Source: Sulfuricurvum sp.
GTDB lineage: Bacteria > Campylobacterota > Campylobacteria > Campylobacterales > Sulfurimonadaceae
Assembly (NCBI RefSeq): GCF_022759005.1
Contig: NZ_JAEMQA010000011.1
Span: forward strand, 1 to 50,037
Length of the DNA: 50,037 bases
Direction of reading: 5' to 3'
Position 1 is the stretch's first letter, and each line of letters opens with the position of its first letter. Below, in pieces: positions 1,416 through 7,660 of the stretch. The translations under genes and the position numbers were made by a program. The notes under the pieces were generated by a model, which worked only from the letters and a program-made list of their open reading frames with translations, searched no databases and had not been told where the DNA came from.

Positions 1416-2714
1416 CTATTTCCTTTTGGACTTGACTGGTACACAAATAAAACAGTTAATATTGTCACGTCGCTCATACGCCAAAACATAATTATGTGCT
1501 TTCAAAATCGCATCGACTATGTAAAGTCCCAATCCAAAACTGTCTTTTGTCGGATGTTCTTTGGTGAAAGGTTCAATATAAAAGTTCAAAGGTTTTTTAA
1601 GAGGTTCGCCCTCATTGGCAAAAATAATCTCTTCCCCTTCCATCCATATTTTCATCTTTTTTTCGGGAGAATATTTGATCGCATTATCGATCAAATTTTT
1701 AACTGCCGTCACAAATAACCGATAATCAACCTCGATTTTGACCGACGTATCGATCGAATGCTCGATCGCATCGTATTCCACCATAGCCATATCGATCGCA
1801 CCGTCAATAATATCGACAAGACGGTACTCTTTTTTCTCAAGATACTGATTGCCGGAGGTGATCTCTTCGATGAGAGCGAATTCGCCGATCAGCGATTCAA
1901 GCCGCTCAAAAATCCCCTCAAAGCGCCCCCGCTGCTTTTCATCGCTGAGCATGGTCGTGACAATCCGCCCTTTAGCGATCGGAGTTTTGAGCTCGTGCAT
2001 AATATTACGCAAAAAGAGGGTGCGAGATTCGATCAACGAGCGGATTTTATTTTGGGTCGATTCGAGTTCGTTGGCGATCAAAGCGATCTCATCATTGCCG
2101 TCAATACCGAAACGTACCCCCATGTCCCCTTCGCCGAAACAGGCAATTTGTTTACGCAGTCTGCGAAGCGGATGAAGCCGATAAATAATCAACGCAAAGG
2201 CGATACTCAAGATGCCGATGAGCGTTGCATATGCAGACAACAAATTCACCGGATGATAGGGAGCGAGATTGCGGTCCAATAACAAAATCGTGCGACGAGA
2301 AGATTCCACCCAAAAATAGATATGATCTTGATATTCGATCATTGACGTAATAATCTGCTGCGGCGAATGCATCTCAAACGACGCTTCCGGAAGGGAGTAC
2401 TGAGAGACTGCTTCTTCGGCGCTTGCATCACTTTTGAGTACTTTCCCTTGACGTATTACCTTGGTATACGCACCTTCTTGATTAATCTCTTCCAAATCGT
2501 AAAAAGCCAAATTGGCTTCAAACACAGGTTGTGAAATTTGTTTGTTGATGTAGGAGTGATAAATCTGACTGATCAGCGCGTGCTTGGCAAAAATACTGTC
2601 AATATGCTTGGTACGGTTATTCTCATAGAGCTGATAAAACGTGAAGCTCACACTCGCGACCGAAACCGCAAATGCAAACATGACCGTTGCTAATACTGCG
2701 TTATTTTTTACCAT
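1416..2714 (-). CDS. Sensor histidine kinase, ArsS-like
   Basis: 432 aa membrane sensor kinase. One transmembrane segment at about 7-27, a periplasmic sensor region to about 155, a second membrane segment at about 160-178, then a HAMP-like linker. The H-box is IMHELKTP with the phospho-acceptor His at 240, followed by an N-box (NLIDNAIKYSP) and a G-box (FGLGLYIV). The H-box context LRNIMHELKTPIAKGR resembles the acid-responsive ArsS kinase of Helicobacter pylori; that is family similarity and not proof of the stimulus. It overlaps the response regulator stop by 1 nt (TAATG), so the two form an operon. The signal is unknown; the position just downstream of feoB leaves an envelope or metal signal possible. 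Confidence 0.9.
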   Translation of the reverse strand: MVKNNAVLATVMFAFAVSVASVSFTFYQLYENNRTKHIDSIFAKHALISQIYHSYINKQISQPVFEANLAFYDLEEINQEGAYTKVIRQGKVLKSDASAEEAVSQYSLPEASFEMHSPQQIITSMIEYQDHIYFWVESSRRTILLLDRNLAPYHPVNLLSAYATLIGILSIAFALIIYRLHPLRRLRKQIACFGEGDMGVRFGIDGNDEIALIANELESTQNKIRSLIESRTLFLRNIMHELKTPIAKGRIVTTMLSDEKQRGRFEGIFERLESLIGEFALIEEITSGNQYLEKKEYRLVDIIDGAIDMAMVEYDAIEHSIDTSVKIEVDYRLFVTAVKNLIDNAIKYSPEKKMKIWMEGEEIIFANEGEPLKKPLNFYIEPFTKEHPTKDSFGLGLYIVDAILKAHNYVLAYERRDNINCFICVPVKSKRK

Positions 2715-3376
2715 TATTTTAGGAGTTTATAGCCGATACCGCGAATTGACTCAATGAGAGATTTATCTCCGAGTTTATTACGGATTCGCCCCATCATCAC
2801 ATCGATGCTTTTATTTGAGGAATCTTCATTGATCGCGGAGACGTTATGGATGAGATCCTCTCGCGAAACCACCATCCCCTGTTTTTTAATCATGTGCGCC
2901 AAGATACCGTATTCGGCATTGGTGAGTTCCAACGGACGGTTTTTGTAGCTGATTTGCATCGCGGATTCGTTGAGTTTAAAATCGCATGCGCTCTCAGATG
3001 CGGCAATCGAAGCGGCATCGTATCGGCGTAGAACCGAATGGATGCGAGAAACCAGTTCGCGCGGATCATACGGTTTTGGGAGATAATCATCGGCACCGAG
3101 TTCGAGAGCGTTGATCTTGTCAGTCACGTCCGAACGGGCTGATGAGATAATAATCGGGATATTCTGACGCGCGCGAATCGCTTCACACACTTCCAAACCG
3201 TCCATTCCCGGTAGCGTCAGATCCAAAATGACCGCATCAAACTGCTCAAGTTTGAGGATACTGAGCGCTTTGAACGGATCGTCTTCCGTCGTCACTTTGA
3301 ATTCGTACTGTTCCAAAAACTCGGTGAGGATCTCGGCAAGCTCGAGATCATCTTCAATCATTAATATTTTATTCAT
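2714..3376 (-). CDS. OmpR-family response regulator
   Basis: 220 aa from the ATG at 3376, chosen because MNKILMIEDD places the acidic pair at residues 9-10 as in all receiver domains; a longer reading adds six non-conserved residues. The phospho-acceptor is Asp52 (ILDLTLPGMDG) and the conserved Lys lies in LPKPYDP near 102. The C-terminal winged-helix DNA-binding domain ends in ESIRGIGYKLLK, typical of OmpR/PhoB proteins. It is the cognate partner of the overlapping kinase gene. It starts 35 nt downstream of feoB, so it may be partly co-transcribed with the iron genes or have its own weak promoter. Confidence 0.93.
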   Translation of the reverse strand: MNKILMIEDDLELAEILTEFLEQYEFKVTTEDDPFKALSILKLEQFDAVILDLTLPGMDGLEVCEAIRARQNIPIIISSARSDVTDKINALELGADDYLPKPYDPRELVSRIHSVLRRYDAASIAASESACDFKLNESAMQISYKNRPLELTNAEYGILAHMIKKQGMVVSREDLIHNVSAINEDSSNKSIDVMMGRIRNKLGDKSLIESIRGIGYKLLK

Positions 3377-3411
3377 GCCGTTATTGTAACGCACAGAGGG
3401 TTAATGATTTC

Positions 3412-5526
3412 CTAACCTATCCACAATACCGCATGATACGCTAGAAACGCCAATGTATATGCCACAATCGAAGTAAAGACGAACAAATATCCGAAGTATT
3501 TGATTCCGCCCGCTTCTCGGGTAAAAACAACCGAAGCAGCCAAGCACGGCAGATAGGTCATGATGACAACCACAAACGCCACTGCAGAGGCAAACGGTAT
3601 CTGAGAGCTAATGGTAGCGATCAGTGAATGATCTTCCTCTGTCGCATCACTTCCGAGTGAGTACAATACCCCCATTGTCGAAACAACAACCTCTTTGGCT
3701 GCCAATCCCGTCTGCAACGCTACCGCCATTTTCCAGTCAAAGCCCAACGGTGCGAAAACCGGTTCGATCGCATGACCGATATGTCCTAAAAAGCTCTGCT
3801 CCAACTGCGCTTCTGCCAATTGATTTTTAAGCGATTTTTTAGCATCTTCCGATGCTGCGGCTTCGATCTTCGTTCCATAGAGTTTGTCTAAAGACGCATC
3901 TTTTGGATAGGTGCTGAGAAACCATACCAGCAACGATGCGGCAGCGATAAATGTCCCCGCTTTTTTGAGGTACATCATTGTCTTGGTCACTACCGTGTGC
4001 CAAATTAATTTGACGGAAGGGAGACGGTATTTTGGCATCTCCATGACAAACGGCTCATCAGAACCTTTAAATGCCGTCATTTTCAACACTTTTGCCGCTA
4101 CCAAACCGATCATTGCACCGAGGATATAGATTCCAAACAGCACATTTCCCGCCATCTCGGGACCGAAAAATGCCCCGGTAAAAAGAACATAGACCGGAAG
4201 ACGTGCCCCGCAGCTCATAAATCCTATGACAAACAATGTCAAAAGACGGTCGCGGTCATTTTTCAAAATACGTGCCGACATGTAGGCAGGGATAGAGCAT
4301 CCGAACCCGGTTACCAGCGGAATGAACGACTGTCCGTGAAGCCCGAATTTATGGAAAAACCCATCCAATAAAAACGCGACGCGCGACATATACCCCGTCG
4401 ATTCAAGCAACGCGATACCGACGAACAAAATCACAATGTTCGGAACAAAAAGGACAACCGCACCGACCCCGCTGATTACCCCGTCTACGACCAAAGAGCG
4501 TATCTCTTCATTACTAATCGTTGAACCAACCAACGCACCGAACCATCCGAAAAAGGTATCGATCCAATCCATCGGAATCGAACCGATCTCAAAAGTGAGC
4601 TGAAATAATCCCCACATTAAAAACAAGAAAATAGGAATTCCTGCAATCGGATGGATCAGAACGCTATCGATTTTTTCGGTCGTTGTTTTCGCGTGAAGCA
4701 TTTTCGGCTTCACTTTCACCGCTTCGGCGATGATCCCCCGATTGTAGGAGAGGTACTCTTCGGCCAAGGCCTCTTTCATATCATCGGTATCGTGATGGAG
4801 CAAAACATGACGATCCGCTTCGATCAACATCGGCTGCAATTCGGTCCAAATCGGGTTATCATGCAATACTCGATACGTTTTTTTCTCTTTCTGAAGCAAA
4901 TTGATGGCGATGTTACGATTAGAGATCGAAGCTTTGAATTTATGGCGATCCAAATATTCGCTGATCAGCTTGATCTCCTCCTCGAGTGCTTCACTAAACA
5001 CCAATTTTTGTTCTTGGAACGGTGTCTCATATACATTTATCACGGAGCGCATCAATTCATCCAACCCAGTTTTTGCCGCTGCAGAAACCCGAATACACGG
5101 GATCCCCAAGAGTTGCGATAGATAGGGAGCATTAATCTCGATCCCCTCTTTGTCCGCTTCATCGGACATATTGAGTGCGATCACCATTTTTTTGCTCATC
5201 GTCATCAATTCTGCACTCAATTGGAGGTTTTTCTCCATATTCGTTGAATCGACGACATTGATGATCAAATCATACTCTTCATGACACAAATAATCGTGTG
5301 TCACCCGCTCTTCGATCGAATAATCGGTAAAAGCATATGTTCCGGGCAAATCGACGACACTAAATTCGTATCCGCCGTATTCAAACGTCACGACGGTTTT
5401 TTCAACCGTTACCCCCGTGAAATTTCCGACATGCAGCCGCGCATTGCCGATCGAGTTGATCAACATACTTTTTCCGACGTTCGGCTGTCCGACAAGGGCT
5501 ACGGTTATTTTTTTGTTAGCGGACAT
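3412..5526 (-). CDS. feoB: Ferrous iron transporter B
   Basis: 704 aa inner-membrane Fe2+ transporter. The N-terminal G domain has G1 GQPNVGKS (residues 13-20), G3 DLPGTYAF and a G4-like NMSDEAD in place of NKxD; two Gate-type hydrophobic repeats follow (IPAYMSARILKNDRDR and the later PCLAASVVFTREAGG). The ATG at 5526 is preferred over the in-frame GTG at 5529 because a GAGG Shine-Dalgarno lies 6 nt upstream of it. It overlaps feoA by 11 nt. With feoA and the upstream porin it forms an iron-uptake unit under Fur-like sites at about 7.0 kb. No FeoC gene is visible. Confidence 0.97.
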   Translation of the reverse strand: MSANKKITVALVGQPNVGKSMLINSIGNARLHVGNFTGVTVEKTVVTFEYGGYEFSVVDLPGTYAFTDYSIEERVTHDYLCHEEYDLIINVVDSTNMEKNLQLSAELMTMSKKMVIALNMSDEADKEGIEINAPYLSQLLGIPCIRVSAAAKTGLDELMRSVINVYETPFQEQKLVFSEALEEEIKLISEYLDRHKFKASISNRNIAINLLQKEKKTYRVLHDNPIWTELQPMLIEADRHVLLHHDTDDMKEALAEEYLSYNRGIIAEAVKVKPKMLHAKTTTEKIDSVLIHPIAGIPIFLFLMWGLFQLTFEIGSIPMDWIDTFFGWFGALVGSTISNEEIRSLVVDGVISGVGAVVLFVPNIVILFVGIALLESTGYMSRVAFLLDGFFHKFGLHGQSFIPLVTGFGCSIPAYMSARILKNDRDRLLTLFVIGFMSCGARLPVYVLFTGAFFGPEMAGNVLFGIYILGAMIGLVAAKVLKMTAFKGSDEPFVMEMPKYRLPSVKLIWHTVVTKTMMYLKKAGTFIAAASLLVWFLSTYPKDASLDKLYGTKIEAAASEDAKKSLKNQLAEAQLEQSFLGHIGHAIEPVFAPLGFDWKMAVALQTGLAAKEVVVSTMGVLYSLGSDATEEDHSLIATISSQIPFASAVAFVVVIMTYLPCLAASVVFTREAGGIKYFGYLFVFTSIVAYTLAFLAYHAVLWIG

Positions 5527-5755
5527 CACACACCTCGATTAGCTCTGCTTCTTCACGGCGAAGAGCAATATTAACACTCCCGATTTTTATCTCAAACGTA
5601 CTTTTAGTAAGACCGCATTCGAGGATGACAATCTCAGCACCTTTCATCAATCCAAACGAAATAAGCCTTTGTTTTAACGCGCCAGTAGCATTGATCTTTG
5701 CAACCGTTGCATGCTCTCCCTTGGTGCATGCACTTAAAAGCGTCATCGTTTTCAT
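5516..5755 (-). CDS. feoA: FeoA-family protein
   Basis: 79 aa SH3-like FeoA domain. It shows the family pattern of an N-terminal strand (LLSACTKGEHATVAKI), a central RLISFGLMKGAEIVI segment and the ending IALRREEAELIEV. FeoA proteins are small cytoplasmic accessory factors for FeoB. The gene starts 8 nt after the end of the porin gene and overlaps feoB, so all three are probably one transcript. Confidence 0.93.
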   Translation of the reverse strand: MKTMTLLSACTKGEHATVAKINATGALKQRLISFGLMKGAEIVILECGLTKSTFEIKIGSVNIALRREEAELIEVCDVR

Positions 5756-5763
5756 AGTAATCC

Positions 5764-6971
5764 TTAGAAGTTATAGCTCAAACGAACCAAAAAGCGGTCA
5801 TATCCACCATCGTATGGGATGTTGCTTCCATCCGGTGACGTATTCGCGATATTTTTATTTTTATCATCAATCATGGCATAGCTCATTTTGGCGGTGAGTG
5901 CTTCATTGATAGCGTAGGCTGCAATCAGATCGGTCTCTCGAACCTTAATATCCATCGGTGCACTTTTAAAATTTCCGTACCGTACGCTCAAAGTAGCCCC
6001 TTCAATTCCTGCATCCGCCATATCAATCGATGCGTTTAATTGATATGCTCGTGCATCCTCCATACCATTAATCGTCATCTCTTCCATGGATGTGTAATAC
6101 GGCCCTCCCCCAAATCCGATAGAGACCGCTTTTCCACTGTCATTGGTTGCTTTGTTGTATGCAGCACCGAAAGTTACCATTCCAATACTGAGATTTACAT
6201 TTGTTCCATACACATTGCCATCAATATTGCTTGCATAGAGTTCGTTAAAACGGCCATATTGTCCTGAGAACTCGACTCCCATTCCCTCATTGATAGCCAA
6301 AGAGTAGGTCGCATCTCCGTAAAAAACATTTGTCATGTTGTCAATTTCGTAATACCATCTTGCAATGCCAGATTTTCAATACTCTCATTAGTCACACCAA
6401 AAAGCGATGATCCATTACTGTTTCCCCTGTTGAGTCTTTTAAATTCAGATATGTCATCACCAGAATCATAACCGGCCCAACGTTTGATGCAACCGCCGAT
6501 CAATGTCGTTTTATCAATTCCGCTGTAAGTCGCGATGGCCGCTTCGAATGTATTGGGATGCATACGGATGTCATCCGTATTGGCTAAAGGGGTGTCGATC
6601 AACTGCCGCCCGATACGTAAACTGAAATCATTTCCACTGTAATCGATATACGCTTCACCGACATATACATACGATTTTGCATTATTGGACAAAACGTCCA
6701 TATTTGCATTATCGCCATCCCCCGTTGCAAATCCGATTTTTTGACTAATATAAGAACCGATTCCTACTTTCAACCCGTTCCAATCGCCACTTTCGTATTT
6801 GAAAATACCACCCAATGATGTCGTATAAGTATCGGTATCGACCGCATTGTCTTGATCCACATATGCCGCACGAAGTTGTCCGCTCACTTTTCCACTCTTG
6901 AATGCATCGTCAATACCGCTTGCACTCAATACGACAACTGCAGCCATGCTCAGAACTATTACTTTTTTCAT
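5764..6971 (-). pseudogene. OprD-type outer-membrane porin, interrupted by a frameshift
   Basis: Two reading frames (6971-6333 and 6336-5764) together encode one porin of about 402 aa. The first has a signal peptide (MKKVIVLSMAAVVVLSAS) and the OprD-like segment RIGRQLIDTPLANTDDIRMH; the second ends in the outer-membrane signature LVRLSYNF. On the minus strand, the reading after IENLALQ goes out of frame at about 6358-6359. Restoring one base gives LQ-x-WYYEIDNMTNVFYGD, which joins the frames without a gap. There is no homopolymer at the break. An RBS (AGAGGG) and two Fur-box-like sites lie upstream and feoAB downstream, so an iron-related uptake role is inferred. It could be a true mutation or a sequencing or assembly error; the rest of both frames looks intact, which favours a recent event. 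Confidence 0.88.
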
Positions 6972-6993: not shown

Positions 6994-7012
6994 CAGAATG
7001 ATATTCATTATC
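6994..7012. promoter_or_regulatory. Fur-box-like site 1
   Basis: CAGAATGATATTCATTATC matches 16 of 19 positions of the classical Fur consensus GATAATGATAATCATTATC. It lies 23 nt upstream of the porin ATG, overlapping the expected promoter of the porin-feoA-feoB unit, where a repressor would block transcription. Confidence 0.78.
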
Positions 7013-7028
7013 AACTTATACTATTCTT

Positions 7029-7047
7029 AATAATGATAACCCTTTTC
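7029..7047. promoter_or_regulatory. Fur-box-like site 2
   Basis: AATAATGATAACCCTTTTC matches 15 of 19 Fur consensus positions. It sits 16 nt from site 1 in the divergent region between the porin and pssA, so it may extend Fur binding or affect pssA, whose -10 (TATAAT, 7074-7079) is 26 nt away. Confidence 0.55.
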
Positions 7048-7111: not shown

Positions 7112-7660
7112 ATGCAATTTCTCTGGCGTTCTACCAGTCACTTCAACCTTGCTAATCTCATTACGATGGCCAATATCACCTGCGGTCTTTTAGCTACTTA
7201 CAGTATTACTCAAAATCATTTTGTTATCGCTGCGGCACTAGCGTGGGCAGGGGGAGCATTCGATATTTTTGACGGAAAAGTTGCTCGTAAATACAATCTC
7301 TCTAACGAATTCGGCGTTCAGCTCGACTCCTTCGCCGATTTCTTGAGCTTCGTCCTCGTACCAACCTTTTTTATTTTCCAAGGGGTCTACTCACAGCTTT
7401 CAGGGGTATTATTGATCGTCGCATCAATGATTTCGATCTATTACGTCATCAGCGGGCTTCGCCGTCTGATTCAGTTCAACATCAACACCGATGCGGGAGA
7501 AGTAGCGAAGTTTTTTACAGGGGTACCGACACCCCTTGGAGCGATATTCTTGTGGATCGTGTGGCTCGGATCAGCTTATATCGGAGTTTATGCCGTGATG
7601 ATTTTGATGGTTGTCATCGGTGCATTGTTGAATTCAAAGGTGAAAATTCCGCACTTATAA
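7112..7660 (+). CDS. pssA: CDP-diacylglycerol--serine O-phosphatidyltransferase
   Basis: 182 aa integral membrane protein with the complete CDP-alcohol phosphatidyltransferase signature DG-x2-AR-x8-G-x3-D-x3-D, here running from DGKVAR to DSFAD, preceded by the PssA-type start NLITMANITCGLLA. It makes phosphatidylserine from CDP-diacylglycerol and L-serine, the first committed step to phosphatidylethanolamine. Several hydrophobic helices follow the motif. An AGGAC RBS precedes the ATG and a -10 TATAAT lies at 7074-7079. It diverges from the porin gene and its last bases overlap the convergent rmuC stop. No phosphatidylserine decarboxylase gene is in the window. Confidence 0.95.
   Translation: MQFLWRSTSHFNLANLITMANITCGLLATYSITQNHFVIAAALAWAGGAFDIFDGKVARKYNLSNEFGVQLDSFADFLSFVLVPTFFIFQGVYSQLSGVLLIVASMISIYYVISGLRRLIQFNINTDAGEVAKFFTGVPTPLGAIFLWIVWLGSAYIGVYAVMILMVVIGALLNSKVKIPHL

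Follow-up and report, generated by a model that had tools for sequence, protein, structure and literature searches.

A feo-linked porin gene of Sulfuricurvum sp. is split by one missing base: a likely young null allele, or a sequence error

The window analyzed here, a 50,037-nt stretch of a draft Sulfuricurvum sp. genome (contig NZ_JAEMQA010000011.1), carries one porin gene in two pieces next to the ferrous iron uptake genes feoA and feoB. The gene is broken by a single base, its orthologues are intact in related species, neither half has decayed, and the same slot has repeatedly lost its porin within the genus. The broken porin is best read as a real and very recent null allele carried by the population that was sequenced, a reading to which we assign a probability of about 0.6; the gene is one of recurrent loss in the genus.

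Results

The two frames lie on the minus strand, and downstream of them come feoA, feoB, a response regulator gene of the OmpR type and a sensor kinase gene. The N half (6333–6971) encodes 212 aa as written, of which residues 1–204 are homologous to porins, and has a signal peptide, while the C half (5764–6336) encodes 190 aa from an internal ATG, with homology beginning at 6357, and ends in Phe, the C-terminal barrel signal. The start of feoA (5519–5755, minus strand; PF04023, E 1.2e-16) is 8 nt past the porin stop, and feoB (3412–5529, minus strand) is intact with its FeoB_N, Gate and FeoB_C domains. Upstream of the porin, two Fur-box-like sites (6994–7047, minus strand) agree with the consensus at 15/19 and 14/19 positions; they stand at −1257 and −1292 relative to feoA, and matching positions were found in most close relatives. 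The divergent pssA-like gene (7112–7660, plus strand), a conserved neighbor, forms the upstream border of the porin slot. The initial annotation had linked the porin to Fur and to iron uptake, and its linkage to Fur and Feo holds; the porin is probably co-transcribed with feoAB and Fur-controlled. The sensor kinase and OmpR-type regulator genes (1416–3394, minus strand) directly follow feoB and possibly form one operon with it; the regulator is conserved next to feoB in many relatives.

Against the OprD profile PF03573 (394 positions), the N half matched positions 7–186 (E 7e-8) and the C half positions 239–361 (E 1.5e-5), the former above the curated cut-off and the latter just below it (24.7 vs. 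25). Each intact orthologue is one undivided protein of about 400 aa, and the nearest matched PF03573 at positions 9–354 (E 3e-19) and solved OprD-type porins with an E value of 7e-12, the nearest solved relatives being OprD-type porins such as OpdC, OpdO, and OpdK. These profile matches confirmed that the two frames are halves of one OprD-family porin gene, the identity first proposed for them. In place of one continuous frame with a signal peptide, the window has a frame broken at 6358–6359, and the copy is a disrupted member of the family, not working as written. Distant OprD porins persist in the window's genome, the best among the matches listed having 35% identity, and no close paralogue of the broken porin was found there. 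A contig-database search with the porin returned a single match of 28% identity, on JALEMK010000080.1 of a MAG labeled Erysipelotrichaceae, and a viral-contig search returned none. The Erysipelotrichaceae are a family without an outer membrane; the matching contig is probably a contaminant.

The break was located by codon alignment and by tblastn with the Sulfuricurvum kujiense protein. In nearly all relatives the site reads CAA/CAG-GGN/GCN-TGG, that is Gln-(Gly/Ala)-Trp, while the window has two bases (6358–6359, minus strand) rather than three between CAA and the conserved TGG, and the anchor-to-anchor spacing across the break is 23 nt vs. 24 nt in the intact relatives. In the tblastn alignment, residues 1–204 correspond to 6971–6360 and residues 206–397 to 6357–5767, with the same two bases left over. 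Both results bore out the initial annotation, which had described a one-base break at about 6358–6359 within 6333–6362 and a restored gene of about 402 aa; the 204 and 197 codons on either side of the broken codon indeed give 402 positions. Past the break, the first frame runs through 8 foreign codons (residues 205–212) and then stops at a TGA, which shares bases with the start codon of the second frame in the sequence ATGA. Since only the N half has a signal peptide and only the C half has the C-terminal Phe motif, neither half alone should form a barrel, from general knowledge of outer-membrane protein assembly.

The age of the break was evaluated from the conservation of the two halves. Of the 107 columns that do not vary among 12 intact orthologues, the window departed in none (N half 0/55, C half 0/52), and four intact sequences subjected to the same test showed 2 to 10 departures. 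With G004 as outgroup, 21 non-synonymous and 38 synonymous changes were assigned to the window lineage vs. 22 and 42 to its intact sister G014. These results indicated that selection acted normally on the porin up to a very recent time, or does so still; an older pseudogene was rejected, as the invariant columns are all kept and the window lineage has gathered both classes of change to the same extent as its sister. Given the intact relatives and the perfect conservation elsewhere in the gene, the break is either very young or a sequence error, the two alternatives of the initial annotation, and the complete lack of decay suits an error as well as it suits a young mutation.

The slot upstream of feoA was then surveyed in 41 genomes of the genus, in G018 and a few others of which it is cut by contig ends. 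While feoB was general among them, the porin was intact as a single frame in 21 other species, broken in three (the window, G022 by a frameshift, and G053 by an out-of-frame internal deletion), reduced to a C-terminal remnant in two (G002 and G013), and absent in eleven, so that it is broken, remnant or missing from the same feo slot in 15 other species. In a tree built from feoB, each of the three broken copies arose separately, and the well-supported branches require that the intact state changed at least 9 times, a count from a single gene tree that takes losses and gains by transfer together. Some of the other species' breaks could themselves be draft errors, the safest disruptions being the large deletion of G053, whose assembly is good, and the remnants of G002 and G013. 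Two loci depart from the usual layout. In G050 (L123, G050:C133), a TonB-like protein of 235 aa, so named from reading its translation, is encoded between pssA and feoA (2440–3147, minus strand) with no porin. In G042 (L124, G042:C2:524000-533500), three opposite-strand genes (4536–6895, minus strand), ApbE-like, FMN-binding-like, and outer-membrane-like by their translations, separate an intact porin from feoA, and Fur-box-like sites stand in front of feoA.

The survey bears on the principal competing explanation, in which the organism's gene is intact and the base is missing through an error of sequencing or assembly, or because the consensus took up a minor strain variant. We regard this as a serious possibility, short of an even chance. 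The break is only one base, neither half shows any decay, the assembly is a fragmented draft of 158 contigs, and the closest species carrying the porin have an intact gene. The initial annotation had taken intact orthologues as a sign of error; the orthologues are indeed intact in other species, but this does not prove an error, because the slot is independently broken or empty in others, a repeated site of loss. Against an error also stands the site itself, which has no homopolymer, as had been noted at the outset.

The indel rate of the assembly was assayed by a frameshift scan in which 816 kb of it were compared with 1.2 Mb of chromosome from S. kujiense (G016); about 356 kb of coding sequence matched cleanly, and 122 of 150 simulated single-base deletions (81%) were recovered. 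G016 was identified by its contig 1, which is 100% identical to a plasmid of S. kujiense, and the other species of the genus take the name Sulfuricurvum from it. Of four raw candidates the porin was the sole true frameshift, the three others being discarded because they are antisense ORFs containing stops, or a leader ORF ahead of recA. Since the rest of these roughly 356 kb showed no true frameshift at this sensitivity, the assembly is not rich in indels, which argues against an error. Single frameshifts do occur in other drafts too, for example in feoB of G021, and this weighs against a real allele. That feoB (G021:C30:6900-9544, about 1639–1682) is split by a frame change, possibly a draft error, and is unusual in being so, the gene being intact in nearly all other species.

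It is highly improbable that a programmed event joins or couples the two frames, by −1 frameshifting or by stop-start re-initiation at the ATGA, to yield a full-length or two-piece porin. Although the stop/start overlap exists and both halves appear conserved, no slippery heptamer (XXXYYYZ) occurs in the frame overlap (6330–6381), and no Shine-Dalgarno sequence precedes the internal ATG when the sequence is read directly. This ATG is an ordinary Met codon of the barrel, at a residue that is variable in the relatives (Val, Ile, Leu, Phe, or Met), and a C half made from it would lack a signal peptide. When the orthologous locus was compared, the two-gene arrangement was absent from every relative aligned at the break. 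A programmed −1 frameshift gene was rejected, with the heptamer absent and no intact orthologue having the arrangement. On/off phase variation through slippage, conceivable for a surface porin that is recurrently broken in the genus, has almost no probability, as the initial annotation had anticipated, since no homopolymer or tandem repeat is present at the break and the breaks of G022 and G053 differ in position and kind.

Discussion

On the preferred reading, that of a real and very recent null allele, one base would have disappeared from the codon that precedes a conserved Trp in the OprD-family porin gene. A ribosome beginning at the proper start codon would then make 204 porin residues and 8 foreign ones before stopping at the ATGA overlap, and the gene would be null as written because the remaining C part, having no signal peptide, could not enter the outer membrane. 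The feoA and feoB genes stay intact, and other porins would let ferrous iron into the periplasm.

The repeated loss of a Feo-linked porin across the genus is more interesting than this one break, which is itself ordinary biology. We tentatively propose, as a rather doubtful generalization, that Sulfuricurvum has an evolutionary hotspot at the slot preceding feoAB, where inactivation, deletion or replacement has struck the porin again and again but spared feoA and feoB, as if the porin carried a recurring cost, such as phage entry or iron excess; the window would then capture a loss at its very start. If real, the young null allele in an iron-uptake operon would be a snapshot of free-living sulfur oxidizers shedding outer-membrane porins; should the break be a sequence error, the case is of interest for annotation alone. 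To our knowledge, descriptions of Feo systems usually include no outer-membrane partner. The presence of a feo-operon porin across much of the genus, and its repeated loss, make a dedicated Fe2+ porin role testable by comparing species with and without it. A literature search on Sulfuricurvum, feoB and porin together found nothing.

Comparison With Known Systems

The window porin resembles the OprD/Occ porins OpdK, OpdC, and OpdO in family, in its length of about 400 aa, and in its signal peptide and C-terminal Phe, but it is split by one missing base and has feoAB as its genomic neighbor. The characterized Occ porins are named after carboxylate or amino-acid substrates. A role of the window porin in Fe2+ entry is plausible by analogy, because of the conserved Fur-box-like sites and of precedents in Acidithiobacillus and Escherichia coli. 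In Acidithiobacillus, feoP, a porin-like gene with a Fur box in front of it, stands before feoABC and was proposed to serve ferrous-iron entry (PMC2631029). In the window, the porin gene likewise lies directly upstream of feoA–feoB on the same strand, behind Fur-box-like sites. However, FeoP was described as an OprB-family porin-like protein (PMC2631029), which sets it apart from the OprD-family porin of the window, so that the two systems are alike in arrangement and not in descent. In E. coli, genetic evidence was reported for Fe2+ crossing the outer membrane via OmpC before FeoB (PMC7315122), the kind of passage that the window porin would provide; OmpC is a general porin encoded outside the feo operon, whereas the window porin gene adjoins feoAB.
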